This document shows, piece after piece, positions 13,225-29,882 of a DNA stretch of 33,128 nt. Numbering within the stretch: the first letter of the stretch is position 1; each line of letters starts with the position of its first letter. The DNA comes from Anaerolineae bacterium (GTDB taxonomy: Bacteria; Chloroflexota; Anaerolineae; Aggregatilineales; Phototrophicaceae). The notes below the pieces were generated by a model that had not been told where the DNA came from, searched no databases, and saw nothing but the letters and a program-made list of their open reading frames with translations. Both the position numbers and the translations under genes were made by a program. The stretch spans positions 1 to 33,128 of the forward strand of contig JACDGI010000010.1 in assembly GCA_013821665.1 (NCBI GenBank), read 5' to 3'.

Positions 13225-14604
13225 TCACCACAGATCGCGTGCTTTCAACACCTCGCCAACTGCTTCCAAGTTTCGCAGTTCCGCCTCGGAATAATTCCGT
13301 GAGAGCAGTACACCGCTTGCCCCACCATCAAAAGCGGCATTCACACCATCCTTGATTTCGTCGGGTGTGATTTCCTTGCTCTTGCCACCATCACCCACGC
13401 CTACGCCGATCCCCGAATAGACTTTGCGTCCAGTATCGGCCACCAGATTTGCTGTCCATTGCTTGACGTATTCCGGCTTGAAACCCGCCATCGGTGCTTC
13501 ACTGCGTGGCGCGATGAACTCATTCAAATTAAGGATGGTCGCCAGCGCATTATAGGCACCATCCGGAGTCGCATCGGCCAATACGGCTTTCTGCCAGCTC
13601 TCGGCGAAGTTCGCAAACCGTGCCCCTGCGGGTGTGTGATACAAAACCGGCTTGAACCAATCCGCGTACGGCGCATACTCCGTCTGGTCGTACTGCGCCT
13701 TCGCGTATGGATTATAGGTATTAATCACCTGCCACACGCCGAAACCAACTTCTTTTTTCGGGTCAAAAAACTTGATCAGTCCCGAAACTTCGTGGTACAT
13801 ATCCTGATGTGCATCCAACCACATTTTCTCCCACATCAGCACTTCGGGATTCAACAGCAGATGCCGCAGCAGGGTCACAAACACCCCATCACGCGGACGT
13901 TCGCCTTTCCGCACGCCTTGAAGGAAGCGGTCTATTTTCTGGTAGCCTTCGATTGAGCGCTGCACATCCAAGCCGCGCGCCCGTGCCTCAGCTTTGAAAT
14001 ACTCATCAAAGCCGGTCGAACTATCCCCTCTAAAAATATCCATCAACGGACTGTGCCGCTCAATTCCCCATAGCATTCCAGTCAAATCATGGTTGCTAAA
14101 CCAGTCGCTAATTACCGACCGCCACCATGCGCGGTATTGCGGGTTCATCAATGAAGGTCGTGTCGCCAGCTTGCCCCAGTGATCACGATCTAAAAAGTGC
14201 GCGAACCCCGGTTGCCAGATCGAGCGGATGCTGGAAGCCGATGTTTCACAGTAATAGGGATAGACTTGCATCCCGCGTTTCTTCGCCGCTGGAATCACAT
14301 CGCGGAAGGTATCAAATCCTTTATAAAGCGGATCAGGCGCGGCAAACTTCTTATGAAAAGTGCCTTCGTAGAACTCAGGATCAGGTTCAAAGAAAGCCCC
14401 GCCTTGTAAATTATCCTTTTCGGCTACACCGTGGTCAGGGAAGCCATAAGGCGCTCGTCCCGCATTACCATAGCTCCACGACAATGCCGAAATCAGCAGG
14501 GCATTCACACCCGCTTTCTCTTGTAGAATGTCTAATACTTGCTCGACACCCTCATCAATAAAACTGATGGCACCAATTTGGATGCCTACCCATGTCTTGG
14601 TCAT
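13225..14604 (-). CDS. Hypothetical protein, TIM-barrel / glycoside-hydrolase-like
   Basis: 459 aa; barrel-like features 'GVNALLISALSW', 'AAKKRGMQVYPYYCET', 'LTGMLWGIERHSPL', 'GGASGVLLSRNYSEAELRNLEAVGEVL'. Confidence 0.65.
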   Translation of the reverse strand: MTKTWVGIQIGAISFIDEGVEQVLDILQEKAGVNALLISALSWSYGNAGRAPYGFPDHGVAEKDNLQGGAFFEPDPEFYEGTFHKKFAAPDPLYKGFDTFRDVIPAAKKRGMQVYPYYCETSASSIRSIWQPGFAHFLDRDHWGKLATRPSLMNPQYRAWWRSVISDWFSNHDLTGMLWGIERHSPLMDIFRGDSSTGFDEYFKAEARARGLDVQRSIEGYQKIDRFLQGVRKGERPRDGVFVTLLRHLLLNPEVLMWEKMWLDAHQDMYHEVSGLIKFFDPKKEVGFGVWQVINTYNPYAKAQYDQTEYAPYADWFKPVLYHTPAGARFANFAESWQKAVLADATPDGAYNALATILNLNEFIAPRSEAPMAGFKPEYVKQWTANLVADTGRKVYSGIGVGVGDGGKSKEITPDEIKDGVNAAFDGGASGVLLSRNYSEAELRNLEAVGEVLKARDLW

Positions 14605-14674: not shown

Positions 14675-15616
14675 CTAGCTTCGTCCACGCAGTCTCGGAT
14701 CAAGGAAATCGCGCAGCCAGTCGCCTAGAATATTAATCGCCAACACAGTCAGCATGATCGCCAAACCGGGTAATACGGCCAACCACCATTTCCCAGCCAG
14801 CAGTTGGTCGCGGCTTTCCGCCAGCATTCCACCCCATGTTGGAACGGTCGGCGGCACACCCAATCCCAAAAATGATAGCGATGCTTCCGAGAGAATTACG
14901 CTCGCCACATTAAAGGAAGAAATCACGATTAACGGTGCCAGCACATTCGGGAAAATGCTGCGGAACATAATCCGCGTATGGCTGGCACCCATGCTGCGTG
15001 CTGCCTCAACATATTCTTTCTCACGCTGGCTGATGGTCTGACCACGGGCGATACGGGCATACGTCACCCATTGACCAACGCCCAGTACCAGCACCAGATT
15101 TGGGATACCCGGCCCCAGCACTACCAGTACCATAATCGTCAGCAAAATAAATGGGAACGCCAGTTGAATATCGGCCAGCCGCATAATTACATCGTCCAAC
15201 GCACCACCGTAGTAACCGGCGATAATGCCTAACGTTGTGCCCATCACACCGCCGATACCAACAGCGGTTACGCCCACCATCAGCGAAATTCGTGCGCCGT
15301 AAATCAGACGAGAAAGTACATCGCGACCCAAGCCGTCCGTCCCTAGAAGAAAACTGCTGTTGTCCAATCCAGCCGCTGGAAACGGCGGTAATAGTCTTAG
15401 AATAAGGGTCTGGCGATTGGGATCTTTCGGTGAAATTTGTGGACCAAGTACCGCACAAAAAACCACCGCTGCAAGAATGATAAGTCCCAGAACCGGCCAG
15501 CGGGCTTTGATTAAGCTAATACGTGCCCGTCGCCATACGGAAGATTGCGTTTGAACCGTCAGTACAACCGGAATTACCGGCGAAAGGGTTTTGGCTTGCA
15601 CCGTAGTTTCTCCCAC
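14675..15616 (-). CDS. Peptide/nickel-type ABC transporter permease (DppC-like)
   Basis: 'LLGTDGLGRDVLSRLIYGARISLMVG', 'EYVEAARSMGASHTRIMFRSIFPNVLAPLIV', 'LSEASLSFLGLGVPPTVPTWGGML'. Confidence 0.95.
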   Translation of the reverse strand: MGETTVQAKTLSPVIPVVLTVQTQSSVWRRARISLIKARWPVLGLIILAAVVFCAVLGPQISPKDPNRQTLILRLLPPFPAAGLDNSSFLLGTDGLGRDVLSRLIYGARISLMVGVTAVGIGGVMGTTLGIIAGYYGGALDDVIMRLADIQLAFPFILLTIMVLVVLGPGIPNLVLVLGVGQWVTYARIARGQTISQREKEYVEAARSMGASHTRIMFRSIFPNVLAPLIVISSFNVASVILSEASLSFLGLGVPPTVPTWGGMLAESRDQLLAGKWWLAVLPGLAIMLTVLAINILGDWLRDFLDPRLRGRS

Positions 15617-15621
15617 AGCCC

Positions 15622-16599
15622 TTACCCCAGCCTTATCCGGGGGTCGAGCCGCGCATAAATAACGTCAACGAACAAATTCAAGCCAACAAAGATGAACGAG
15701 AACAAAATCACTGCCGCCTGTACCAGCGGAATATCACGCTGGGTAATCGCGGTAAAGACCAAGCGTCCAACACCCGGCCACGAAAACACCGTCTCAACAA
15801 TGACAACACCGCTTAGCAGGAAACCGAATTCCAAACCGAGCATGGTCACCACTGGAATAAGCGCATTACGAAAAGCATGTTTGAGGATGACAACCCGTTC
15901 GGCTAAACCTTTGGATCGGGCAGTCACCACATAATCCTGCGACAAAACTTCCAACATCGATGAGCGCACCAAACGTGCATTACGCGATAGCGAGAACACG
16001 CCAATGGTTATGCCGGGCAAAATAAGATGCCGTATAGCCTCAGGAATATTCCTGAAGGCGAGTTGTGTATCCCCCTTCAACAGCGGATCAAGCAGCGCCG
16101 TTCGCCCCGAAATGGGCAGCCAGCGTAACGCCAGTCCCACAAACAAAATCAGCATGATGCCTAGCCAAAAACTCGGCATCGACTGCCCAACCATTGCCAA
16201 CATCATGATGCCACCGTCAAGGGCTGTACCACGCCGCATGGCCGAAATAATCCCAATGGGAATCGCCAGCAGCGTCGAAAATAACATGGCAAAGAAAGTG
16301 AGTTCAATGGTAGCGGGCAGGCGTTCAAGTACCAGATCCAGCACGGGCGTTTTTGACCGCAGCGACATACCCATATCACCATGCAGCAAATTACCGATGA
16401 AAATCAGGTATTGTTCGGGCAGCGGTTTATCAAAACCCAACTTCGCTCGTACCTGAGCGATTTCTTCGTTACTGGCCCGTTCGTTCACATAGAGATAGGT
16501 GGGATCACCTGCCAGATGCAGACTAAAAAACGAAAGCATTGTCACACCTAAGATAACGATAATGGATTGCAAGAGGCGGCGTACTAAATACCGGCTCAT
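15622..16599 (-). CDS. Peptide/nickel-type ABC transporter permease (DppB-like)
   Basis: 'MSRYLVRRLLQSIIVILGVTMLSFF', 'QDYVVTARSKGLAERVVILKHAFRNALIPVVTMLG', 'VIVETVFSWPGVGRL'. Confidence 0.95.
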   Translation of the reverse strand: MSRYLVRRLLQSIIVILGVTMLSFFSLHLAGDPTYLYVNERASNEEIAQVRAKLGFDKPLPEQYLIFIGNLLHGDMGMSLRSKTPVLDLVLERLPATIELTFFAMLFSTLLAIPIGIISAMRRGTALDGGIMMLAMVGQSMPSFWLGIMLILFVGLALRWLPISGRTALLDPLLKGDTQLAFRNIPEAIRHLILPGITIGVFSLSRNARLVRSSMLEVLSQDYVVTARSKGLAERVVILKHAFRNALIPVVTMLGLEFGFLLSGVVIVETVFSWPGVGRLVFTAITQRDIPLVQAAVILFSFIFVGLNLFVDVIYARLDPRIRLG

Positions 16600-16639
16600 A
16601 ATGAGAATTTCCTACTTATCTTAACGATAGGACAAGATT

Positions 16640-16666
16640 ATGGGGCGAACACTATGTCCGCCCCAT
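16640..16666 (-). repeat. Intercistronic stem-loop ATGGGGCG-N11-CGCCCCAT between SBP and permease genes
   Basis: Perfect 8-bp arms 16640-16647 and 16659-16666. Confidence 0.65.
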
Positions 16667-16704
16667 TTCAAACAATAAACTATGAAACCTGACCGTTCAG
16701 CGAA

Positions 16705-18294
16705 CTACGACGGTTTAAGGGTAACGTTATTGACGATGATTTGCTCATCGCGGCGTGCTTGCCATTCCACACGGTTGCTGACACCGTAGAAATCCGGTTG
16801 CATGTACAGGAAAATCCACGGCGGATCGTCATGCATCACCTGAAGCATCTGGTTAACGACATCTTTTTCCTTGGCGGGATCACGGATGTCAGCCAAGCTG
16901 TTCCACAACTCGAACCACTTGGGGTTGGCCCAACTGGTGTAGTTGGTGGAAGCATCTGGAGCCGAAATATCGGACATGTCGTAAATCGCGCTCCATGTAT
17001 CGCCACCGGTTCCAAGGAAGAACATCGGCCCCATCTTGTGTGTACGCACCAATGGGACGTATTCCGAACTCCAATCCTTGATTTCCAGATCGACCTTCAC
17101 ACCCACATCGGTCAGGTATTGGGCAATCGCCTGTACTACCGCTGCATCATTCAGGTAGCGACCACGAGGCCCCTGGAAGGTAATCTCGAAGCGTGTGCCG
17201 TCAGCCTTGAGCGGATAACCAGCAGCGTCGAGGAGTTCTCCGGCCTTCTTGGGATCATAAGGATAGGGTTCGATTGCGGGGTCGCCATTCGGATCATTGA
17301 CCATCGTGGCCGCACGTTTGCATTCTGTACCGAGTAATGTCTTGCAAATGGTCGGGACATCAATTGCGTACTGCAATGCGACGCGCACGTCACTCTTCTG
17401 GATCACGTCAGCACCCGGCAGACTAGCCATATCTGCGGCTAAGTTGAAACCGACATACATACGGCGTGTACCTTGAACGGCTTCGACCTTGGCGCTGTCC
17501 GAACTGTTGACGGCATCGACTTGATCTGCTGGTACGTTGGCAGCAATATCGACGTTGCCAGCCAAGAGTTCAGCTACGCGGGTCGAGTTTTCGGGGATAA
17601 CACGCCAGATCAGGCGGTCAAATGTTGGTGTGAACAGCTTAAAGCTTTCATTACGAGCAAGTTCAATGTAGTCATCCTTGACGCGAGTGACGAGTTTGTA
17701 TGGGCCAGAGGCAACTGGAGACTCAGCCGCTTGTTCCAGCGTCATCTTCTCGTATGAGTCTTTGCAATGAATACCAACCTCGGCGATCAAGCCCAGCGCA
17801 ATCGATTGATACTTCTTCATCACGATGGTGACGTTCAGCGGATCAACAACCTTAGCATCCGCATAGCTAATGGCATCCAAGACGAAGCCAGCCGTATTAC
17901 CCGTAAATTTATTATCGGGGTTGGCAGCACGTTGGAAGGTATAAGCCACATCTTCAGCCGTTAGTGCTTCACCATCTTGGCAGGTCAAGCCATCATTCAG
18001 CGTGAAGGTCATTTCTTTACCGTCGTCCGAAAGTTTATAGGACTTGGCAAGATAGGGGACAATCGAACCCTTATCGTCAACCGTATACAGTGAAGCGAAA
18101 ATGTGGTTGTCAATATTGGCTTCTGAACGTGAGTTCGAGTTTGATGGGTCAAACGTTTCAAGATCAACGCTCTGGGCAATTACCAACGTCTTTTCGTCCG
18201 GCGCAGTTTGTGCGTGAACGACCAACGGCAGGGCAGCCAGAAGCAAAACGGGAAACAACATGAGCTTACGAACTTTTAAGAAGTGACCGGGCAT
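16705..18294 (-). CDS. ABC transporter substrate-binding protein, family 5 (peptide/nickel type)
   Basis: N-terminal signal peptide; 'LVIAQSVDLETFDPSNSNSRSEANIDNHIFASLY', 'DGLTCQDGEALTAEDVAYTFQRAANP'. Confidence 0.94.
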   Translation of the reverse strand: MPGHFLKVRKLMLFPVLLLAALPLVVHAQTAPDEKTLVIAQSVDLETFDPSNSNSRSEANIDNHIFASLYTVDDKGSIVPYLAKSYKLSDDGKEMTFTLNDGLTCQDGEALTAEDVAYTFQRAANPDNKFTGNTAGFVLDAISYADAKVVDPLNVTIVMKKYQSIALGLIAEVGIHCKDSYEKMTLEQAAESPVASGPYKLVTRVKDDYIELARNESFKLFTPTFDRLIWRVIPENSTRVAELLAGNVDIAANVPADQVDAVNSSDSAKVEAVQGTRRMYVGFNLAADMASLPGADVIQKSDVRVALQYAIDVPTICKTLLGTECKRAATMVNDPNGDPAIEPYPYDPKKAGELLDAAGYPLKADGTRFEITFQGPRGRYLNDAAVVQAIAQYLTDVGVKVDLEIKDWSSEYVPLVRTHKMGPMFFLGTGGDTWSAIYDMSDISAPDASTNYTSWANPKWFELWNSLADIRDPAKEKDVVNQMLQVMHDDPPWIFLYMQPDFYGVSNRVEWQARRDEQIIVNNVTLKPS

Positions 18295-19436: not shown

Positions 19437-20392
19437 GATGTCATAACCTCTTTGTTTTGTCCCTGAAGTGCTTGGCGGATGCCCTCTGCAAACGGTGTCC
19501 AGCTCTGAAAGCCGGTTTCTTCCTGCAAACGCTGGTTACTTAAATAACCTCGCCGCGTCAGCATAGGCATGTTTGGATCACTGCCTTGTTGTATATCCAG
19601 TTCAACATCCGGCATCAACGATTGAATAACCTTCGCAATATCCAACGGCGATAGCACCTGCTGCGAGGCCACGTTATAAAGCGCGTGATGCAGCATAGGT
19701 TGCTTCAACAATGCTGCAACTGCTGCACCAATATCAGGCGCAAACGTCCAATCGCGCGCCGGATCATCCTGATAAACAGTCACTTTGCCCGTTTGTGTCG
19801 CTTGCCGCACCAACCGACCAGCTAAACTGACGCGTGGACGGGTCGAACGCGGCTGTTCGTCCGGCCCATAAATATTACTGAGGCGAAAGGTTGCCACATC
19901 GCGTCCATATTCTCCGCGCAAGGTGGCGACGAGCGATTCCATTGTCTGCTTAGCCACCGCATACAAACCATTTGGCGAAGTCAGATCATTTTCACTAACC
20001 ACACCCGGTTCTGTTGCTGCATAAACGGCGCTTGAACTGATACTCAATACCCGTCGCACTGAATGGGCTTGTGACCATTCGAGAACGGCTAAAAGCGGAT
20101 CAAGATTGGCGCGAAAATTGGCTTCTGGTGTTTGATCGAGTTCTTCTGGTGAGGCAGTAATGGCGGCACCATGAATCACTGCATCCACTTCAACCGACGG
20201 CAAATTCGCGCTGTCGGTCTGGATAAACTGGATGTTGTCACCCCATCGCTTTAGCCAGCTTGCCTGTAAAACCTCGTCAAACTGGCGATCAACCGCGATA
20301 ACGGCCCAACCTTCATTCAACAATGCTTGCGTGATATTGCTGCAAACAAAACCGCCAGCACCTGTTACCATCACACGTGGAGAAGCGTTCAT
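19433..20392 (-). CDS. NAD-dependent epimerase/dehydratase
   Basis: 'VMVTGAGGFVCSNITQALLNEGW', 'VLSISSSAVYA', 'YAVAKQTMES' (YxxxK); overlaps both neighbouring CDS by 4 nt. Confidence 0.93.
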   Translation of the reverse strand: MNASPRVMVTGAGGFVCSNITQALLNEGWAVIAVDRQFDEVLQASWLKRWGDNIQFIQTDSANLPSVEVDAVIHGAAITASPEELDQTPEANFRANLDPLLAVLEWSQAHSVRRVLSISSSAVYAATEPGVVSENDLTSPNGLYAVAKQTMESLVATLRGEYGRDVATFRLSNIYGPDEQPRSTRPRVSLAGRLVRQATQTGKVTVYQDDPARDWTFAPDIGAAVAALLKQPMLHHALYNVASQQVLSPLDIAKVIQSLMPDVELDIQQGSDPNMPMLTRRGYLSNQRLQEETGFQSWTPFAEGIRQALQGQNKEVMTS

Positions 20393-21066
20393 ATGTCGCC
20401 ACCTTCCCCATCATCATGCCAGCCTTCAGCAATTAATTCGCCGGAGGCTGCGACGTGGGCTTCCATAAGCTCAACCGCTTTTTGGACTTCACCGGCTTCA
20501 ATCGCGTCAATAATTGGCACGTGGTTATAGGCAATTTTCTTAAGGTCGCTGTTGCGTCGATTGAGTAATGCCATCACCTGACGCACCCTCATCGACACCA
20601 CATTCCAACTGGTCAGCAGCAAACTGTGTCCACTGAGTTCAATCAAGGTGTCATGGAATTCACGGTCAATCTGGTTAACCTGTTTCAGGTCGCCTGCTTC
20701 CGCCGCTGCTAACATAGCTTCAAAGCATTTCCGTAATCTAATCACGTGCTTTGAATTGTCTTGCCCGATAATCCGTCGAATAGCAAAGGTCTCCAAAACG
20801 CTACGGAGGCTATAGAGTTCTTCAATATCCGTCTTCGTCAGCCGCCGGACAGTCGTGCCATGATAGGGGACTGTTTCGGCTAAACCCTCAGTACTCAGGA
20901 TTTGCAGAGCCTCACGCAGTGGTGCGCGGCTTACACCGAGACTGGCTGCTAAGTCTGTCTCGATGAGCTGCTGGCCGGGTTTAAATTCGCCTGTGATGAT
21001 GGCCTCGCGTAGTGCATCCAGTACGCGGTCACGAAGCGAACGATTTTCAATATGGTTCAAAGTCAT
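20389..21066 (-). CDS. GntR-family regulator, FCD (FadR-like) C-terminal domain
   Basis: 'SLRDRVLDALREAIITGEFKPGQQLIETDLAASLGVSRAPLREALQILSTEGLAE', 'YSLRSVLETFAIRRII', 'REFHDTLIELSGHSLL'. Start at MTLNHIE preferred; the ORF start at 21093 runs into a -35 box. Confidence 0.92.
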   Translation of the reverse strand: MTLNHIENRSLRDRVLDALREAIITGEFKPGQQLIETDLAASLGVSRAPLREALQILSTEGLAETVPYHGTTVRRLTKTDIEELYSLRSVLETFAIRRIIGQDNSKHVIRLRKCFEAMLAAAEAGDLKQVNQIDREFHDTLIELSGHSLLLTSWNVVSMRVRQVMALLNRRNSDLKKIAYNHVPIIDAIEAGEVQKAVELMEAHVAASGELIAEGWHDDGEGGDI

Positions 21067-21086
21067 AATTGGATTTTTCAAATTGC

Positions 21087-21115
21087 TTGACAAGCCATAG
21101 GTGCAAACTTATAAT
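21087..21115 (+). promoter_or_regulatory. Consensus sigma70-like promoter TTGACA-N17-TATAAT
   Basis: TTGACA 21087-21092 and TATAAT 21110-21115, reading toward the DUF4438 genes. Confidence 0.75.
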
Positions 21116-21123
21116 CGCCAGAA

Positions 21124-21149
21124 ATTGTCGACAATCGACAGACGACAAG
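21124..21149. promoter_or_regulatory. Candidate GntR operator: palindrome ATTGTCGACAAT plus three CGACA direct repeats at 7-bp spacing
   Basis: ATTGTCGACAAT 21124-21135; CGACA at 21129, 21136 and 21143. Confidence 0.65.
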
Positions 21150-21159
21150 TAATGACAGG

Positions 21160-21188
21160 ATTATAGAAAGCACATTCGTATGTGTCAA
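21160..21188 (-). promoter_or_regulatory. Consensus sigma70-like promoter (minus) TTGACA-N17-TATAAT
   Basis: TGTCAA at 21183-21188 and ATTATA at 21160-21165 on the plus strand, spacer 17 nt, reading toward the gntR gene. Confidence 0.7.
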
Positions 21189-21201: not shown

Positions 21202-22068
21202 ATGCCTCTTGCAACCAATGAATCACAACTTGTAGAGATTGCTGTTACGGGGAATATCAGCCCACCTACCTTACGTTATCCGGGTTATACGCTGGATGAT
21301 AAAGGTGTGGGGCGGGTGCTGCCGGGGATGGCCGGCGTGGTGTATAACGCACGAGTCGGTGACGCGGCGTTTGGTTGGGCAGGTGACCATGTTGAGCCGG
21401 GTGTTTCGATAGCCAACCCTGACAACGCTGCCGAATTTGCCTTGCACTATTTGACGTGTATGGGCAATAAAGCAGTAGTTACCAGCGGCATGGGTAAAGG
21501 TGCAGAAGGTATCGTCACAGGTGAACACGCGCGTCTGCTCGTGGATTTCTCGCCGGATGTGCATGACCTATTGTGCGTAGGCGATTCGATCCAGATTATT
21601 GCCTGCGGACGCGGTTTAGAGCTCACCGATTATCCTCAAATTACGCTCAAGAAATCCAGTCCACAGCTTATCAACGGTATTCCGTTTGAAGTCATCAGTG
21701 ATACCAAAATTCGCGTGCCGGTAACAACGGTTTTACCACCGAGAATTATGGGGTCAGGTGCCGAACTGAACTCGGAATATGTTGACCAAGATTTGATGTC
21801 GGGCGACCGGGCATTGATGGCCGAGCTAGGCATTGACCAGATGAAATTAGGTGATTTGGTGGTCATACCGGATGCCGACCACCGCTTCGGACGCACTTAT
21901 CGCAAAGGCGCAGTGACGATTGCGCTGTGCATTCATGGCGACTCGGTGATGATCGGGCATGGGCCGGGGATATTGACCTTGATGACCTGCCCCGAATCCT
22001 GTATCGAATGGATTATCGACCCCAAGGCTAACATTGCAAATTACTTCAATATTCGGGAGATGGCATGA
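21202..22068 (+). CDS. DUF4438-family protein (paralog 1)
   Basis: 'GRVLPGMAGVVYNARVGDAAFGWAGDHVEPGVSI', 'GRGLELTDYPQITLKKSSPQL', 'IGHGPGILTLMT' resemble DUF4438 proteins; family assigned from memory. Confidence 0.75.
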   Translation: MPLATNESQLVEIAVTGNISPPTLRYPGYTLDDKGVGRVLPGMAGVVYNARVGDAAFGWAGDHVEPGVSIANPDNAAEFALHYLTCMGNKAVVTSGMGKGAEGIVTGEHARLLVDFSPDVHDLLCVGDSIQIIACGRGLELTDYPQITLKKSSPQLINGIPFEVISDTKIRVPVTTVLPPRIMGSGAELNSEYVDQDLMSGDRALMAELGIDQMKLGDLVVIPDADHRFGRTYRKGAVTIALCIHGDSVMIGHGPGILTLMTCPESCIEWIIDPKANIANYFNIREMA

Positions 22069-22946
22069 ACGTCCGAACCAATTCTGACAAGCTGGTTTCT
22101 GTTTCGGTAATGGGGCTGATTGCTTCGCCCGGTTTCCCCGGCTTACCTGCCGAGCCTTATCGGTTGGATTCCAACGGTAAACCCTTCTTACTGCCGACTT
22201 ACGGTGGCATCGTTTATAACGTGTCAATCGGTGACTCGGCTTTCGGATGGCTGGCTGACACCATTCACCCCGGTGTGAGTATTTCACTGAAGGATGATGT
22301 GGGCAATCGTGGGCTCAATTTGTTCGCCTGTGTTGGCAATGTGGCAATGGTGATGAGTGGCGATGCTAAGGGGATCAAGGGTGTGGTCACGGGAAAGTCG
22401 GGACGTTTTTCGGAACAGGTCATCATCCATTTTGATAAAGAAGCTCGCAAGAAGATGGCGATTGGCGACAAGATCAATATCAAGTCGATTGGTGTAGGTA
22501 TGGAGCTGGCTGACCATCACGACATTAAACTCAAAAGCTGTTCACCGGACATTCTTGAGAACTTAGAAGTCACTACAGGGTCGGATGGTAAGTTGAACGT
22601 GCCGGTGGTGGGTGTGGTTCCACCACATCTGTTGGGTTCGGGTGCAGGGTTGACCAGCGAAGGCGGTTCACTGCACATCCAAACGGCTGACAAAGACGCA
22701 CTAAAAGAAGCCAAACTAGACGACCTTAAATTGGGTGATGTGGTGGCGCTGTTGGATTACGACAGCAGTTGGAACCACGGCTATTTACGGGGTGCCATTG
22801 GTATCGGTGTGATCGGTCAAGGGGACAGCCCACGCGCTGGACATGGCCCCGGCATCACTTTACTGATGACCTCACCGCAGACCGGCATTAACCCGATGGT
22901 CACACCGGGCGTCAACCTCAAGAGTGTATTTAATCTTCAAGATTAA
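22065..22946 (+). CDS. DUF4438-family protein (paralog 2)
   Basis: 'GGIVYNVSIGDSAFGWLADTIHPGVSI', 'IGVGMELADHHDIKLKSCSPDIL', 'AGHGPGITLLMTSPQTGI'. Alignable with paralog 1 along its length; 4-nt ATGA overlap. Confidence 0.75.
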   Translation: MNVRTNSDKLVSVSVMGLIASPGFPGLPAEPYRLDSNGKPFLLPTYGGIVYNVSIGDSAFGWLADTIHPGVSISLKDDVGNRGLNLFACVGNVAMVMSGDAKGIKGVVTGKSGRFSEQVIIHFDKEARKKMAIGDKINIKSIGVGMELADHHDIKLKSCSPDILENLEVTTGSDGKLNVPVVGVVPPHLLGSGAGLTSEGGSLHIQTADKDALKEAKLDDLKLGDVVALLDYDSSWNHGYLRGAIGIGVIGQGDSPRAGHGPGITLLMTSPQTGINPMVTPGVNLKSVFNLQD

Positions 22947-22959
22947 AAATGCAAAGCGG

Positions 22960-22984
22960 GAGCACACATAGGTGCTCCCCTACG
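22960..22984 (+). repeat. Short stem-loop repeat (copy D): GGGAGCAC-acatag-GTGCTCCCCTACGG
   Basis: Perfect stem followed by CTACGGAAA. Confidence 0.7.
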
Positions 22985-23016: not shown

Positions 23017-23481
23017 ATGGACAAACCATACATCAAGCACATGGCATTTGCGGTCAAAGATGCTAAAGCCGCGCTCAAGACTTATCAAGATTTGTTGAGT
23101 GTGGGGCTAGAAGCGAAGGTCGATGACTTCCCCAAGTCGCGCAACCGCGTGGCGCAATTCTGGGTAGGCGATGTGGAATACCAGTTGTGCCAATCGCTAG
23201 ATGAGGGTGGACGCTTCGACAAGTGGATTAAAGAACGAGGTTATGAAGGACTGCACCACATTTGTTACGCCGTCCCCAATATTGACCAAGCGCTGGCGGA
23301 CGCGCAAGCAAAAGGCGCAACTCTCAAAGAGTGCAGTGCGTGTAAGGTCAAAGGCAGCCACGTTCACCCTGAAGGTTGGGTAGCATTCCTCGACCAAGAA
23401 GCGGGCGGGATTGAACTGGAATTGATGCAGGTTTATACACCTGAAGAACTGCAAGAGTATAAGAAGGTCAAGGGAATTTGA
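23017..23481 (+). CDS. VOC (glyoxalase/bleomycin-resistance) family protein, methylmalonyl-CoA epimerase-like
   Basis: 'IKHMAFAVKDAKAALKTYQDLLSV', 'EGLHHICYAVPNIDQALADAQAKGATL', 'VAFLDQEAGGIELELMQ'. Confidence 0.9.
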   Translation: MDKPYIKHMAFAVKDAKAALKTYQDLLSVGLEAKVDDFPKSRNRVAQFWVGDVEYQLCQSLDEGGRFDKWIKERGYEGLHHICYAVPNIDQALADAQAKGATLKECSACKVKGSHVHPEGWVAFLDQEAGGIELELMQVYTPEELQEYKKVKGI

Positions 23482-23484
23482 GCC

Positions 23485-24552
23485 ATGCCGATTACCTTGG
23501 TTCGCGTTCCGGTTGATGAACTTGAAAAATTTAGCGTTAATGTGTTCCAAGCGTTGGGGGTCTCGGAGGATGAGGCGCGGCGCTGTACACGCGGTTTAAT
23601 CGAGAGCGAACTACACTGCTTGCCGGGGCAAGGACAGGGTGTACGACGATTACCTGTTTACCGCGAGCGTATTACGAATGGGTGGATTATACCCGGTGCG
23701 CCATATGAGATTGTGAAGGAAAGTCCGGCGTTGGCGCTTGTTGATGGTCACAACGGACTGGGTTCGGTGGTGGCGCAGAAGTCAATGGAACTGGCAGTAC
23801 AGAAAGCCAAAATTAGCGGGATAGGGACGGTGATCGTCCGAAACAGCACGCACTTTGGTTCAGCCGCAGTGCCGGGGCGACTGGCGCTTGAACAAGATTG
23901 CATCGGAATTGTGATGACGAACGCAGGGCCGGAAATGGCTCCGTGGGGAGCAGCGAGCGGTGTTGTTGGCACCAATCCGTGGGGGATTCTTGCGCCAACA
24001 GGTGGCGATTTCCCAGTGGTGCTGGACATCGCACTGACGACTGCTGGAAAAGGGATGATGCGCTGGTACGAACGCGAGGGCAAAAAGATGCCGCTCGATT
24101 GGGCGCTGACACCTGACGGTTACGAGACCGATGATCCCAGTGCAGCGATGCAAGGTTTCTTGTTGGGCATTGGGCAGCACAAAGGTTACGGATTGTCGAT
24201 GATGACCGACGTAATTACCGGTGTTCTGGGTGGTGGTGGTTATGGTTTAGCACCCTACTCCAATCCCGCCAAGCAAGATGTTTCGCACCTATTCATAGCG
24301 CTGGATATTGAGTGGTTTATGCCCATGAGCGAGTTCAAGGCGCGGATTGACGACTTTATCAAACAGATTAAATCGGCCAAGAAACGACCGGGATTCGATG
24401 AAATTCTCGTACCGGGTGAGTTGGATTACCGGCGCGAACTGGAGTATCGCAAAGATGGAGCCAAGTTGGATGCGGTGGTTTTTGATGAACTGGCTGTGCT
24501 GGCGAAAGATTTAAACATCGACTTCCCGTTTGAGCGGGAGGTAGTGGCCTGA
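23485..24552 (+). CDS. Ldh family (type-2 malate/lactate/ureidoglycolate dehydrogenase) oxidoreductase
   Basis: 'LALVDGHNGLGSVVAQKSMELAVQKAKISGIGTVIVRNSTHFGSA', 'GTNPWGILAPTGGDFPVVLDIALT', 'GQHKGYGLSMMTDVITGVL'. Confidence 0.92.
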   Translation: MPITLVRVPVDELEKFSVNVFQALGVSEDEARRCTRGLIESELHCLPGQGQGVRRLPVYRERITNGWIIPGAPYEIVKESPALALVDGHNGLGSVVAQKSMELAVQKAKISGIGTVIVRNSTHFGSAAVPGRLALEQDCIGIVMTNAGPEMAPWGAASGVVGTNPWGILAPTGGDFPVVLDIALTTAGKGMMRWYEREGKKMPLDWALTPDGYETDDPSAAMQGFLLGIGQHKGYGLSMMTDVITGVLGGGGYGLAPYSNPAKQDVSHLFIALDIEWFMPMSEFKARIDDFIKQIKSAKKRPGFDEILVPGELDYRRELEYRKDGAKLDAVVFDELAVLAKDLNIDFPFEREVVA

Positions 24553-25274
24553 TGTCCATTTCCCAAACTTTGACACGGCCTTTAGCGGCGCGAATTGCTG
24601 CGCTGCCGGAAGTGGTCGAACACACGCATAATCCGCCTATTCCTGAAGGCGTGATTGAGGCGGCTATCCAAGCACTGAAAGACGGCAAGACACATTATAC
24701 CGACCGTCCCGGCATTCTTGGCCTGCGCAAGTGGGTGACGGACATGCTTCAGAAGCAATATGCCGTGACGCTGAAACCGGATGCCGTCACCATTACTTGC
24801 GGGGCGACGGAAGCACGGTTCGTCGTTATCAAACGGCTGGTGAAGGCTGAAGGTACGATTTTATGCGTCGGTGACAGCCAAGCAATTGAAGGCGCAGCAC
24901 AATTGGTGGGCGCGAAAATCGTCTCTGAGATGACTGATGTTTCGGCTATCAAGCTGGTTTATGCTACGCCTGAAGATCCTGTTGAAACGCTGCGACCGAT
25001 TTTGGAGCAAGCCAAAGTACATGGCTGGTGGGTGATGTGGGATGTTAATCAGCAGCCCTCTCTCTCAAACAGTACATTCCATCCAGCACAGGATGAGGCA
25101 CTGGCGGCGAAGGTGATTAGCATCGGCAGCTTCTCGGACGTGATGCCGGGGTGGCGCGTGGGTTGGATGGCGGGTTCGGAGATGGCCGATAAGCTGCGTG
25201 CGTATAAGCAGAGCATGACGATTTGCAGCACCAGCATCTCGCAGTGGGCGGGGATGGGGTTGGTGGAAGAATGA
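24552..25274 (+). CDS. Truncated aminotransferase-like protein lacking the PLP-binding lysine
   Basis: 'VIEAAIQALKDGKTHYTDRPGILGLRKWV', 'PGWRVGWMAGSE' match fold-type I aminotransferases, but 'SIGSFSDVMPGWRVGW' replaces the usual 'xxSFSKxxxMxGWRxGy' and the protein stops at ISQWAGMGLVEE. Confidence 0.85.
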   Translation: MSISQTLTRPLAARIAALPEVVEHTHNPPIPEGVIEAAIQALKDGKTHYTDRPGILGLRKWVTDMLQKQYAVTLKPDAVTITCGATEARFVVIKRLVKAEGTILCVGDSQAIEGAAQLVGAKIVSEMTDVSAIKLVYATPEDPVETLRPILEQAKVHGWWVMWDVNQQPSLSNSTFHPAQDEALAAKVISIGSFSDVMPGWRVGWMAGSEMADKLRAYKQSMTICSTSISQWAGMGLVEE

Positions 25275-25358: not shown

Positions 25359-25371
25359 GAGGTTGGGGAAA

Positions 25372-26559
25372 ATGAATAACCTCAACCCGAATATTCCAGA
25401 GGCAGTACGGGCGGTGGCGTCGGATGGAACGCAGCTTCGGTATGCGTTGATGGAGCTTTCTGCGCAGTACAAGGACGCGATTGCGCTGGGTCGTGGCGAT
25501 CCTGATTTGGCGACACCCGAACACATTTTGGCGGCTGTCGAAGAGTCGATTATCCAGCAAAAAACAGGGCTGACACCGGTAGCAGGGATGCCTGAAATAC
25601 GAGAGGCGATTGCCAAGAAGTTCCAGCGCGAGAACGGGCTGTCGGTTTCGGCTGAGAACGTGATGGTGACGACGGGCGGGCAAGAAGCGCTTTACCTGTT
25701 GATGCAAACCCTGCTTGACCCCGGTGATGAGGTGCTGGTACCTGATCCGCGTTACACGTCTTACGACGAGGCGATTGAGAGCGCGGGCGGAAAAATGGTG
25801 ATGGTTCCAACTGACCAAGTTGATGCTTTCAACCTGCGACCGGAAGCGGTGGAGGCGGCGATTACGCCCAAAACCAAGGCGCTGTTGATCATCACACCGA
25901 GCAATCCGACCGGCGGAATTGTGACCGAGGAACGGCTGCGAGAAATCGCGGCGATTGCTATTAAGCACAATCTGATCGTGATTTCGGACGAGATTTACGA
26001 GAAGTTTGTCTACGATGACTGGAAGCACTTTAGCATCGGGTCGCTGCCGGGGATGGAAGACCGCACGATCACACTGAATGGGTTTTCCAAGACGTACGCA
26101 ATGACTGGATTTCGAATCGGATTTGTGGCCGCGCCCAAGAACTTCATCGACGCGATGACCAAGGTGAAGGCCATTACGAGTGGGCCGGTGGCGACGATTT
26201 CCCAATGGGCTGGGATAGCGGCTTTGACGGGATCGCAAGCACCGATTGAAGAGTTTCGACAGATTTACAGCGAGCGACGGCGTTTTATGATGGACGGCCT
26301 GAGCGCGATGGGTTTGACTTACAGCGATCCACGCGGGGCCTTCTTCCTGTGGACGGATTGTTCGTCGATTGGTGTGCATTCGACCGAGCTTTCTTACTTA
26401 CTGCTGAAAGAAGCGCAGGTGTTGATTTTCCCCGGTACAGGCTTCGGTGAGAATTGGGGCGGATACCTGCGAATCAGCCTTTTGCAGACGACTGATTTGC
26501 TGCGAGAAGCGCTTGACCGGATGAAGCCGGTGGTGGAAAAGTATCGGGCACTTCGCTAG
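25372..26559 (+). CDS. Pyridoxal phosphate-dependent aminotransferase, class I/II
   Basis: 'SNPTGGIVTEERL', 'VISDEIYEKFVYDD', 'LNGFSKTYAMTGFRIGF' (PLP lysine), 'WGGYLRISLLQTTDLLREALDRM'. ATG 25372 after AGGAGG. Confidence 0.96.
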   Translation: MNNLNPNIPEAVRAVASDGTQLRYALMELSAQYKDAIALGRGDPDLATPEHILAAVEESIIQQKTGLTPVAGMPEIREAIAKKFQRENGLSVSAENVMVTTGGQEALYLLMQTLLDPGDEVLVPDPRYTSYDEAIESAGGKMVMVPTDQVDAFNLRPEAVEAAITPKTKALLIITPSNPTGGIVTEERLREIAAIAIKHNLIVISDEIYEKFVYDDWKHFSIGSLPGMEDRTITLNGFSKTYAMTGFRIGFVAAPKNFIDAMTKVKAITSGPVATISQWAGIAALTGSQAPIEEFRQIYSERRRFMMDGLSAMGLTYSDPRGAFFLWTDCSSIGVHSTELSYLLLKEAQVLIFPGTGFGENWGGYLRISLLQTTDLLREALDRMKPVVEKYRALR

Positions 26560-27090: not shown

Positions 27091-28380
27091 ATGATTGATG
27101 CGGTGGTGTTGTTGCAGGAATTGGTGAAAATTCCATCACCGAATTTGCCGGGGGATACACGAGCGATTGCGGCTTATATTGCCGAGGTGATGCGCGAGGC
27201 GGGGTGCATGGTGAAGATGCTTGCACCGGAGCAAAAACCAGAGGCGCAAAGTGTGGTGGCGACATTTGGTCAAGGTGCGCCGGTGATTATGCTGCACGCA
27301 CATATTGATACGGTGCCGATTGCGGTGAATGAGGCACAGCGCTGGAGTGTCGATCCGTATGCAGCGGTGATTCAAGAAGGGAAACTTTACGGCAAAGGCA
27401 GTGTGGATGATAAAGCGCCGTTGGCCGCGATGATGGCGGTGATTTTGGAGAAAGCGCATCCTCTCCCCCTAACCCCCTCTCCGCTGCGCAGCGAGAGGGA
27501 ACCAGAAAATGCAAAACCTCTTTCTCAACACGGAAACGAGGGGGAACAAATAGAGGGGACGTTAGTGCTGGTGGCGGCGGCGGAAGAGGAAACAGGTGGA
27601 GTGTTAGGTACCAAATGGCTGGCAGAAAATGGGCATCTGCCAATGTGTGATTTTATTGTGGTGGGCGAGCAAACGCATAACCATGTAGCGACAGCGCATA
27701 AGGGTGTGATGCGTGCGACGGTTCGCGCTACTGGACGGTCGGTTCATGCGACCAACCCTGACCGGGGTGTGAATGCGATCACAGCGATGGCGAAGGCAGT
27801 TCTGGCGCTGGATGCTTACCACAAGGAACTGGCAACGCGACCGCATCCGATTGTGGGCGTTCCGACTTGCAATGTGGGCGTGATTCAAGGTGGGAGTACA
27901 GCGAACGCGGTGCCGGATAGCTGCGTGGTTTATCTCGACCGTCGAATGGTTCCCGGTGAAAATCCAGCGGTGGTGCAGGATGAAATGCGAGCGGTAATCG
28001 ATGGAGTCGATGCAGGTGAGGCAACGCTCAGCATTGGCGAGTTCCAAACCTCAAACTGGTTTGAATCGACGGCAGTATCAGCGTTGGCGCAGACATTTTT
28101 GGGATGTGTGGAGGGGGAGTTCAGAAAAACCCTCGCCCCCCAGCCCCCTCTCCCTCATGGCGAGGGGGAGTCAGAAAATCCTTATTATCCGGGGCCGATT
28201 GGGTATTTGCCGGGAAGTGATGCCAAACATCTGACAGGCGTGACGCGCGGTGAGATGATCATCTTCGGGCCGGGGAGCTATGAGGTGGCTCACGCGTTTG
28301 ACGAATATGTGGATGTGAAAGAGTTTGCAAGTACAGTGAATATCCTACGGGCATTTGTGGAACATACAATACGGGATTAA
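27091..28380 (+). CDS. M20 family metallopeptidase (ArgE/DapE-like)
   Basis: 'VIMLHAHIDTVPIAVN', 'LYGKGSVDDKAPLAAMMAVIL', 'LVAAAEEETGGVLGTKWL', 'TCNVGVIQGGSTANAVPDSCVVYLDRR', 'YLPGSDAKHL'. Contains two palindromic insertions. Confidence 0.93.
   Translation: MIDAVVLLQELVKIPSPNLPGDTRAIAAYIAEVMREAGCMVKMLAPEQKPEAQSVVATFGQGAPVIMLHAHIDTVPIAVNEAQRWSVDPYAAVIQEGKLYGKGSVDDKAPLAAMMAVILEKAHPLPLTPSPLRSEREPENAKPLSQHGNEGEQIEGTLVLVAAAEEETGGVLGTKWLAENGHLPMCDFIVVGEQTHNHVATAHKGVMRATVRATGRSVHATNPDRGVNAITAMAKAVLALDAYHKELATRPHPIVGVPTCNVGVIQGGSTANAVPDSCVVYLDRRMVPGENPAVVQDEMRAVIDGVDAGEATLSIGEFQTSNWFESTAVSALAQTFLGCVEGEFRKTLAPQPPLPHGEGESENPYYPGPIGYLPGSDAKHLTGVTRGEMIIFGPGSYEVAHAFDEYVDVKEFASTVNILRAFVEHTIRD
27454..27557 (+). 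repeat. GC-rich palindromic element inserted in frame in the M20 peptidase gene
   Basis: Core hairpin CCCTCT-c-CGCTGC/GCAGCG-AGAGGG (27475-27499); encodes HPLPLTPSPLRSEREPENAKPLSQHGNEGEQIE. Confidence 0.75.
28111..28179 (+). repeat. Second palindromic element inserted in frame in the M20 peptidase gene
   Basis: Hairpin CCCTCGCC (28130-28137) / GGCGAGGG (28159-28166), flanked by near-identical GAGGGGGAG(T)TCAGAAAA. Confidence 0.75.
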
Positions 28381-28481: not shown

Positions 28482-29882
28482 GTGGAATTTGAAACCCTGA
28501 TTATCAACGGCGACGTGGTGACCGAAACAAGAATCGAACAACTCGACATCGGTATTCGTGGAGGGCAGATTGCAGCCCTGCTGGCTCGTGGAACAGCGGT
28601 GACAGCCAACGAAGTGATCGATGCAGAGGGGGAGCTGGTCATTCCGGGCGCGATTGACATCCACTTCCACTGCCGTGCGCCAGCGTATCCACAGCGCGGG
28701 GATTTCGCGACGGAAACCCGCGCGGCTGCGGCTGGCGGCGTGACAACCATTTTCGAGATGCCAATTTCCAAACCGTGCTGCGCGACCGGTGATATTTTCC
28801 GAGCACGAAAGGCACTGGGCGAGGCGGATTCGTATGTGAACTTCGCGTTGTATGGCGCACCGGGTTTGCTGGATCGCAAAGAAATCGCGGATATGGCGAA
28901 CGAAGGCGCAATTGGTTTCAAGATCTTTATGACCGGCGCACCGGCAGGACGCAACGATGAATTCGAGGGCTTGTGTTTGCCGCAGGTGCCGGAACTTTAT
29001 CAAGCGATGAAGCTGGTGGCGGAGACCGGATTGGTATGCGTGGTTCATGCCGAGAATGACCAACTTTTGGAGTGGCATACGGCGCAAATGATGGCCGCTA
29101 AACGTAATGATGTGGCGGCACACGGCGAATCCCGTCCACCGCATGTAGAGGCGCTGGCGGTGGCGACATTGTTAACGCTGAACCAAACGGCAGGGATGCA
29201 ACTGCATATCGCGCACATGACATCCAAAGAGACGTTGGATGTATTCCGGCAGTTCAAGCAAGCTGGCGCAAAAGCCACAGCGGAGACCTGCCCCCAATAT
29301 TTATTTTTCACCGAGGCAGATATGGAGCGCGTAGGGCCGTATGCCAAGATTAATCCACCGCTGCGGAAGCAAGAAGATGTCGAGGCGTTGTGGGGTGGCA
29401 TTGAAGATGGCATGTTAATGGTGGTGACGACTGATCACTCGCCGTTTACAGTCGAGGAAAAGGAACGGGCGAGGACGGACATCTGGCGAACGCCGCCGGG
29501 TGCACCGGGTGTCGAGGAATTGGTACTGGGAATGATGGATGCAGCGCTTAAAGGACGGCTGACGATTCCACAAGCAGTGGCATTGGTTAGTACCAACGGC
29601 GCGAAACGCTTCGGGATTTATCCGCAAAAAGGTGCGATTGCAGTAGGGACAGACGCGGATATTGTGATTTATGATCCGCAGCAGACGACGACGATTCAGC
29701 CGGACATGCTGTTCAGTAAGGCGAAGGATTGTGACAAGCTGTACGCGGGAATGACCTTCCAAGGCAAGGTCATGCGGACGATTGTGAACGGGACAACCGT
29801 GTTCGTGGATGGCGAAGTGGTGGGCAAACGTGGCGGGGGAAAATTCGTCCGACCCAATGCGAACCTCGTGCAGGAACTTTAA
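28482..29882 (+). CDS. Allantoinase/dihydroorotase/dihydropyrimidinase-like amidohydrolase
   Basis: 'VIPGAIDIHFHCRAPAYPQRGDFATETRAAAAGGVTTIFEMP', 'GAIGFKIFMT' (carbamylated-Lys position), 'CVVHAEN', 'LHIAHMTS', 'VVTTDHSPF'. GTG start. Confidence 0.93.
   Translation: MEFETLIINGDVVTETRIEQLDIGIRGGQIAALLARGTAVTANEVIDAEGELVIPGAIDIHFHCRAPAYPQRGDFATETRAAAAGGVTTIFEMPISKPCCATGDIFRARKALGEADSYVNFALYGAPGLLDRKEIADMANEGAIGFKIFMTGAPAGRNDEFEGLCLPQVPELYQAMKLVAETGLVCVVHAENDQLLEWHTAQMMAAKRNDVAAHGESRPPHVEALAVATLLTLNQTAGMQLHIAHMTSKETLDVFRQFKQAGAKATAETCPQYLFFTEADMERVGPYAKINPPLRKQEDVEALWGGIEDGMLMVVTTDHSPFTVEEKERARTDIWRTPPGAPGVEELVLGMMDAALKGRLTIPQAVALVSTNGAKRFGIYPQKGAIAVGTDADIVIYDPQQTTTIQPDMLFSKAKDCDKLYAGMTFQGKVMRTIVNGTTVFVDGEVVGKRGGGKFVRPNANLVQEL

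Follow-up and report, generated by a model that had tools for sequence, protein, structure and literature searches.

Two adjacent DUF4438 genes of an Anaerolineae bacterium encode proteins of unequal character: protein A retains a set of histidine and acidic residues that is invariant in single-copy members of the family, whereas protein B has lost the core of this set, yet is under purifying selection as strong as that on A. The genes open a conserved operon within the window, the whole 33,128-nucleotide stretch of DNA that was analysed (contig JACDGI010000010.1). Judging from sequence comparisons, A is probably the catalytic subunit and B the non-catalytic partner of one heteromeric enzyme. 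DUF4438 structures have been solved since 2008 and the family is distributed across bacteria and archaea, yet a function is absent from the literature searched; the residue set and the operon described below make the function of this orphan family directly testable.

The window encodes two overlapping DUF4438 proteins

The gene for DUF4438-A, the putative catalytic subunit (288 amino acids), occupies positions 21202-22068 of the forward strand, and that for DUF4438-B, the putative non-catalytic partner (293 amino acids), occupies positions 22065-22946 of the same strand. Both open reading frames lie where a first-pass annotation of the sequence had placed them, including their four-nucleotide ATGA overlap, and the motifs it had quoted as shared are present in both proteins. 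Its assignment of the proteins to DUF4438, made without database searches, is borne out by a Pfam profile search, in which each protein matches the N-terminal domain PF14505 (E-values of 7e-46 for A and 8e-50 for B) and the C-terminal domain PF20999 (1e-43 for A and 5e-38 for B); the scores of 130-169 bits lie far above the curated cut-offs of 25 and 27. Sequence identity is 38% between A and B and ~42% between either of them and TM1086 from Thermotoga maritima, a protein with two solved structures (PDB 3DCL and 3N99) for which the literature searched yields crystallisation notes only. The annotation had named no established function for the family, and none was found in the open literature that we searched. 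A whole-assembly search returned A and B as the only DUF4438 copies in the window's genome, whose assembly is fragmented (8.1 Mb, 1025 contigs).

Confident AlphaFold2 models of A and B were obtained, with pLDDT values of 91.8 and 92.5, respectively. A fold search performed with the A model alone matched it over its full length to 3dcl (TM-score 0.91, E-value 8e-36, Z 39 over 278 residues). Besides TM1086, the relatives returned by this search cover only the small N-terminal barrel, which resembles that of F1-ATPase subunits, and include no enzyme relative; the absence of further relatives of the A model is no proof of a unique fold.

A and B are co-inherited in one Chloroflexota lineage

DUF4438 was found in 53 of the 98 genomes of the window's family, and all 53 carry exactly two adjacent copies, ~870-890 nucleotides apart, with no instance of a solo A or a solo B, although counts across related genomes such as these are not independent. 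A survey of 400 genomes of the phylum located tandem pairs in two further families and single copies in seven others. Elsewhere the gene is single: a broad contig scan recovered one DUF4438 copy per locus except in the window, whole-genome searches of the genomes in that scan recovered one copy in 34 of 34, and the order of a Lutispora yielded one copy in each of nine positive genomes. The same holds for 66 of the 67 positive genomes of the Thermotogota, the phylum of one scanned locus (L055); the 67th contains two partial hits on different contigs, which most simply represent one split gene. One copy per genome is the state found in Thermotogota, Clostridia and Bathyarchaeota. The co-occurrence of the paralogs proposed in the first-pass annotation is therefore upheld within this Chloroflexota lineage but not beyond it, where the single-copy state marks pairing as a lineage-specific elaboration rather than a property of the DUF4438 family.

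Maximum-likelihood analysis groups all B sequences in one clade (support 98/95, present in 99% of bootstrap trees), all A sequences in another (support 88/73, 87% of bootstrap trees), and the single copies in a third (support 94/93). The simplest reading of the tree is one old duplication that gave rise to A and B as sister clades and whose products have been kept together since.

B has lost residues that are invariant in single-copy relatives

To compare the paralogs, a residue set was defined, in A numbering, by invariance in 86 bacterial and archaeal relatives that have a single copy; it includes, among others, H63, E65, H109, D195, D197, H245 and H253. All seven residues are kept in 19 of 19 own-family A proteins, the window's included. 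Over the three lineages that carry pairs, H63, E65, H109, D197, H245 and H253 are present in 28 of 28 A proteins and D195 in 21 of 28, its place being taken by asparagine in one family (f60). The B proteins of these lineages differ sharply, with H63, D195 and D197 each present in 0 of 28 and E65 in 1 of 28. None of H63, E65, H109, D195, D197 and H245 is kept in own-family B; in the window's B these positions hold T, H, S, S, H and Q, respectively, and only the equivalent of H253 persists, at a position occupied by tyrosine in 13 own-family B proteins and by histidine in five, the window among the latter. The loss is graded, as B proteins of family f60 mostly retain H109 (7/7), H245 (5/7) and H253 (6/7).

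Structural positions (glycine, proline and hydrophobic) are held to a similar degree, at 38 of 47 in A and 36 of 47 in B, and a simple contingency table shows a significant contrast between charged and structural positions in the two proteins (Fisher p 4e-4). Single copies read HGGxEH at H109 and the loop that follows it; A has lost this GG loop by deletion, and in B the loop is lengthened. The dN/dS ratio of B to its closest relatives is ~0.03, like that of A; synonymous sites are near saturation, and these ratios are informative for the closest pairs only. Together with the lack of stop codons within the matched DUF4438 domain in 53 genomes, this ratio argues that B is not decaying. The comparison suggests that A and B are non-equivalent, as a catalytic and a non-catalytic subunit would be, rather than two similar enzymes, and the asymmetric pair acts as a natural mutant that singles out a small residue set as the likely active site.

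The pair lies in a conserved operon

The operon has the order A-B-VOC-Ldh_2-ATs-ATL, in which most genes overlap or are separated by a few bases. The third gene (23017-23481, forward strand) encodes a VOC/glyoxalase-superfamily protein (PF13669); its assignment as a methylmalonyl-CoA epimerase was rejected, as it scores 61.1 bits against TIGR03081, below the equivalog cut-off of 114.95. The fourth (23485-24552, forward strand) encodes an Ldh_2-family NAD(P)-dependent dehydrogenase of 2-oxo/2-hydroxy acids (PF02615, E-value 4e-104), whose nearest solved relatives are the malate dehydrogenase 1v9n and the sulfolactate dehydrogenase 2x06; at 243.6 bits against NF040650 (equivalog cut-off 500) it was not accepted as an L-sulfolactate dehydrogenase. 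Between B and the VOC gene, positions 22958-22979 hold an inverted repeat whose stem is 8 bp long (GGGAGCAC...GTGCTCCC) and which may serve as a hairpin for processing or stabilisation.

Using a simple ORF picker to call genes in relatives, together with tblastn, we found the core operon in nearly all own-family loci inspected, the exceptions being one locus (L146) that has neither VOC nor Ldh_2 at this place and a few contigs that stop too early. Other neighbours are linked less regularly: an M20 ArgE/DapE-type deacylase (27091-28380, forward strand) in 14 of 40 loci, and a hydantoinase/allantoinase-type amidohydrolase (28482-29882, forward strand) in 16 of 40. An oligopeptide/dipeptide-type ABC importer (14675-18294, reverse strand; PF00496 and PF00528), composed of an SBP_5 protein (16705-18294) and permeases at 15622-16599 and 14675-15616, is linked in most own-family loci and lies downstream of ATL in genus g17. 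Genomes of this genus (e.g. G493, G498 and G513) contain the VOC gene twice, with one copy in the operon and one unlinked. A 459-residue protein encoded at 13225-14604 on the reverse strand is unmatched in Pfam and NCBIfam and has no convincing counterpart in the PDB; it is 69-96% identical in 14 own-family loci, where its gene is flanked by the importer and a Gfo/Idh/MocA gene. A DDE transposase gene (PF01609; 10790-11971, reverse strand) lies at the edge of the conserved cluster. The two other families with pairs carry a module of the order Ldh_2-ATs-ATL-2-hydroxyacid dehydrogenase-A-B, with VOC and hydantoinase-type amidohydrolase genes nearby and, in one family, AstE/AspA-type genes. Locus L129, labelled as a Chloroflexi bacterium, and locus L156, from the window's phylum, have an identical gene order around DUF4438, which makes a Chloroflexota origin of the window probable.

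The neighbourhood listed in the first-pass annotation, with VOC, Ldh_2 and aminotransferase genes, is accordingly conserved inside the clade, where neither membership of another known family nor solo paralogs outside a conserved neighbourhood were encountered; it does not extend to the single-copy relatives. These share no conserved neighbourhood, and the genes next to them do not converge on one pathway. Such neighbours include an S9 peptidase, an Opp transporter, an M55 D-aminopeptidase, PxpABC with D-glutamate cyclase, threonine dehydrogenase/KBL, lysine aminotransferase, a ribosomal protein and NadE, and M24 or C26 peptidases adjoin some copies; several of these were named by eye from sequence and others were checked with Pfam. 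At L128 (10001-14802), DUF4438 lies just upstream of a run of 5-oxoprolinase PxpA, D-glutamate cyclase, PxpB and PxpC genes. The gene sits within or beside oligopeptide/dipeptide ABC transporter operons at L105, L134, L115 and L120, and an M55 D-aminopeptidase gene is near it at L105 and L102. In the Fermentithermobacillaceae and near relatives (L058, L078, L098, L099, L108, L121 and L071), an S9-type peptidase gene is followed by DUF4438 on the same strand. A link to lactate racemase through a LarC-like nickel-insertion gene near the single copy at L157 was dismissed, as the gap exceeds 500 nucleotides and no other case was seen. Peptide and amino-acid catabolism is a recurring theme of these contexts, which are too mixed to name a substrate.

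Within the paired lineages, Ldh_2, the 2-hydroxyacid dehydrogenase and the aminotransferase travel with the pair and point to 2-oxo/2-hydroxy acids. The substrates are likely to be 2-oxo or 2-hydroxy acids that originate from amino acids or peptides taken up by the cell, a weaker inference than that of the heteromer.

A degenerate aminotransferase accompanies an intact one

The first-pass annotation had listed aminotransferases, in the plural, as operon context. One of them stands: ATL (25363-26559, forward strand; 398 amino acids) is an intact fold-type I aminotransferase (PF00155, E-value 4e-74) that keeps the PLP lysine motif GFSKTYAMTG and the full-length fold, with 1gd9 and 1dju as its nearest solved relatives. 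It scores 341.5 bits against NF041364, below the equivalog cut-off of 415, and was not accepted as the guanitoxin cyclodehydratase GntC. The other, ATs (24552-25274, forward strand; 240 amino acids), is a degenerate paralog when aligned with ATL and orthologs: it reads GSFSD--VMPG at the site of the PLP-binding lysine, and its chain stops short of the C-terminal domain. In the two other families, orthologs of full length (L163 and L166) have histidine and alanine in place of this lysine. Sequence alignment thus identifies ATs as a pseudo-aminotransferase, the degenerate paralog of ATL.

ATs is found in 47 of the 53 family genomes with a DUF4438 pair as compared to 1 of 45 without one (Fisher p 4e-20, a value that ignores shared ancestry); it was undetected in six own-family pair genomes, and in a few of the 48 genomes that contain it, it is on another contig. 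With dN/dS ratios of ~0.16-0.29 versus 0.07-0.12 for ATL, ATs is the faster-evolving protein, yet it has been retained. The operon would thus hold two pairs of active and degenerate paralogs with unrelated folds, an arrangement that bears on the origins of pseudoenzymes.

A divergent GntR/FCD regulator and a predicted operator

Upstream of A is a sigma-70-type promoter, TTGACA-17-TATAAT (21087-21115, forward strand), which matches the consensus at 12 of 12 positions and is also present in several relatives. A second predicted promoter with 12 of 12 matches (21160-21188, reverse strand) faces the opposite way and would serve a divergent gene (20389-21093, reverse strand) for a GntR/FCD-family regulator (PF00392 and PF07729), found in 24 of 40 fetched loci; its annotated TTG start is the maximum extent of the ORF, and the true start is possibly further in. 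The palindrome ATTGTCGACAAT (21124-21135) closely follows the -10 box of the A promoter, and most own-family loci inspected carry its core TGTCGACA, or a close form of it, between the GntR gene and A. The palindrome is probably the operator of the GntR/FCD protein, and the layout of operator and promoter fits repression by this protein with a pathway metabolite as the inducer. A conserved, seemingly inducible operon of this composition narrows the chemistry of DUF4438 to 2-oxo/2-hydroxy-acid and amino-acid metabolism.

Discussion

We favour a model in which the A/B heteromer was derived by duplication from a homo-oligomeric enzyme of the TM1086 type. A would bear the catalytic, and perhaps metal-binding, constellation H63/E65/H109/D195/D197/H245/H253, and B, with the core of this constellation lost, its scaffold kept and its loop extended at the site of A's deletion, would act as a structural or regulatory partner. 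The ATGA overlap on one mRNA fits production of A and B in a 1:1 ratio, expression would be controlled by the divergent GntR/FCD regulator at the palindromic operator on the promoter, and the enzyme may serve an inducible catabolic pathway together with Ldh_2, the VOC protein and an aminotransferase that is in turn accompanied by a degenerate partner, ATs. Against the model weigh the graded nature of the residue loss in B, seen in family f60, the six own-family genomes that have the pair but no detected ATs, and the lack of a shared neighbourhood among single-copy relatives by which a substrate could be confirmed.

The main rival to this model, which we consider unlikely, is that A and B are separate homo-oligomeric enzymes that catalyse successive steps or act on related substrates, the active site of B having been re-tooled. 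Its appeal lies in the strong purifying selection on B and in the histidines fixed at the E65 and D197 sites of own-family B (19 of 19 at each). However, the replacements at these two sites vary by B lineage (H/H; Q with Q or C; Q with E, C or A), such that no single new site is kept, and strict adjacency, ATGA coupling and the lack of solo A or B genes in 53 genomes are better explained by a complex. It is also conceivable, though improbable in our judgement, that A and B form a complex that binds, senses or carries a pathway metabolite and is not an enzyme. Activity of a DUF4438 protein is undemonstrated in the literature searched, and the resemblance of the N-terminal barrel to F1-ATPase subunits, with no enzyme among the fold relatives, agrees with such a role; but seven His/Asp/Glu residues that stay invariant from bacteria to archaea typically mark a catalytic or metal site, and the remaining genes of the operon encode enzymes. 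DUF4438 is old and widespread, tandem duplicates are common, and A and B are only 38% identical, which could be taken to indicate a routine tandem duplication whose copies are partly redundant and have formed no particular partnership. We regard this explanation as very improbable, given that no solo copy occurs in the 53 genomes, that one ancient duplication has been kept as a pair, and that the loop change is reciprocal and the loss of invariant residues one-sided.

Building on the heteromeric model, we tentatively advance a more far-reaching proposal, of which we are doubtful: two heteromers, DUF4438 A/B and ATL/ATs, each an active protein with its degenerate paralog, would together run one catabolic operon, and A/B would be a new type of metal-dependent enzyme whose substrate, a 2-oxo or 2-hydroxy acid of amino-acid origin, is bound in a composite site, in which the extended loop of B fills the place of the loop deleted in A.

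Several known systems bear comparison with this operon. With their M24, DoeB-like, amidohydrolase and aminotransferase families, the neighbouring genes resemble the operons for catabolism of ectoine (DoeA/DoeB) and of hydantoin or allantoin, but the window's genes miss all NCBIfam equivalog cut-offs: the ectoine assignments were rejected at 54.5 and 108.5 bits for DoeA and DoeB (cut-offs 613 and 402.7), and the hydantoin assignment was likewise rejected on curated cut-offs. TM1086 (3DCL and 3N99; PF14505 and PF20999) has the same two-domain fold as A, and A keeps all of the conserved His/Asp/Glu residues; TM1086, which has no assigned function, is a single-copy protein, whereas the window has two coupled copies, one of them without the core residues. 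Serine palmitoyltransferase offers an analogy in the way it works. Its LCB2 subunit keeps the active-site residues, and its paralog LCB1, in which the PLP lysine is lost, is still needed. DUF4438 is an unrelated family whose A-B complex we infer, and ATs has additionally lost its C-terminal domain; the likeness lies in the combination of an active with a degenerate paralog and, for ATs, in the loss of the same PLP lysine as in LCB1.
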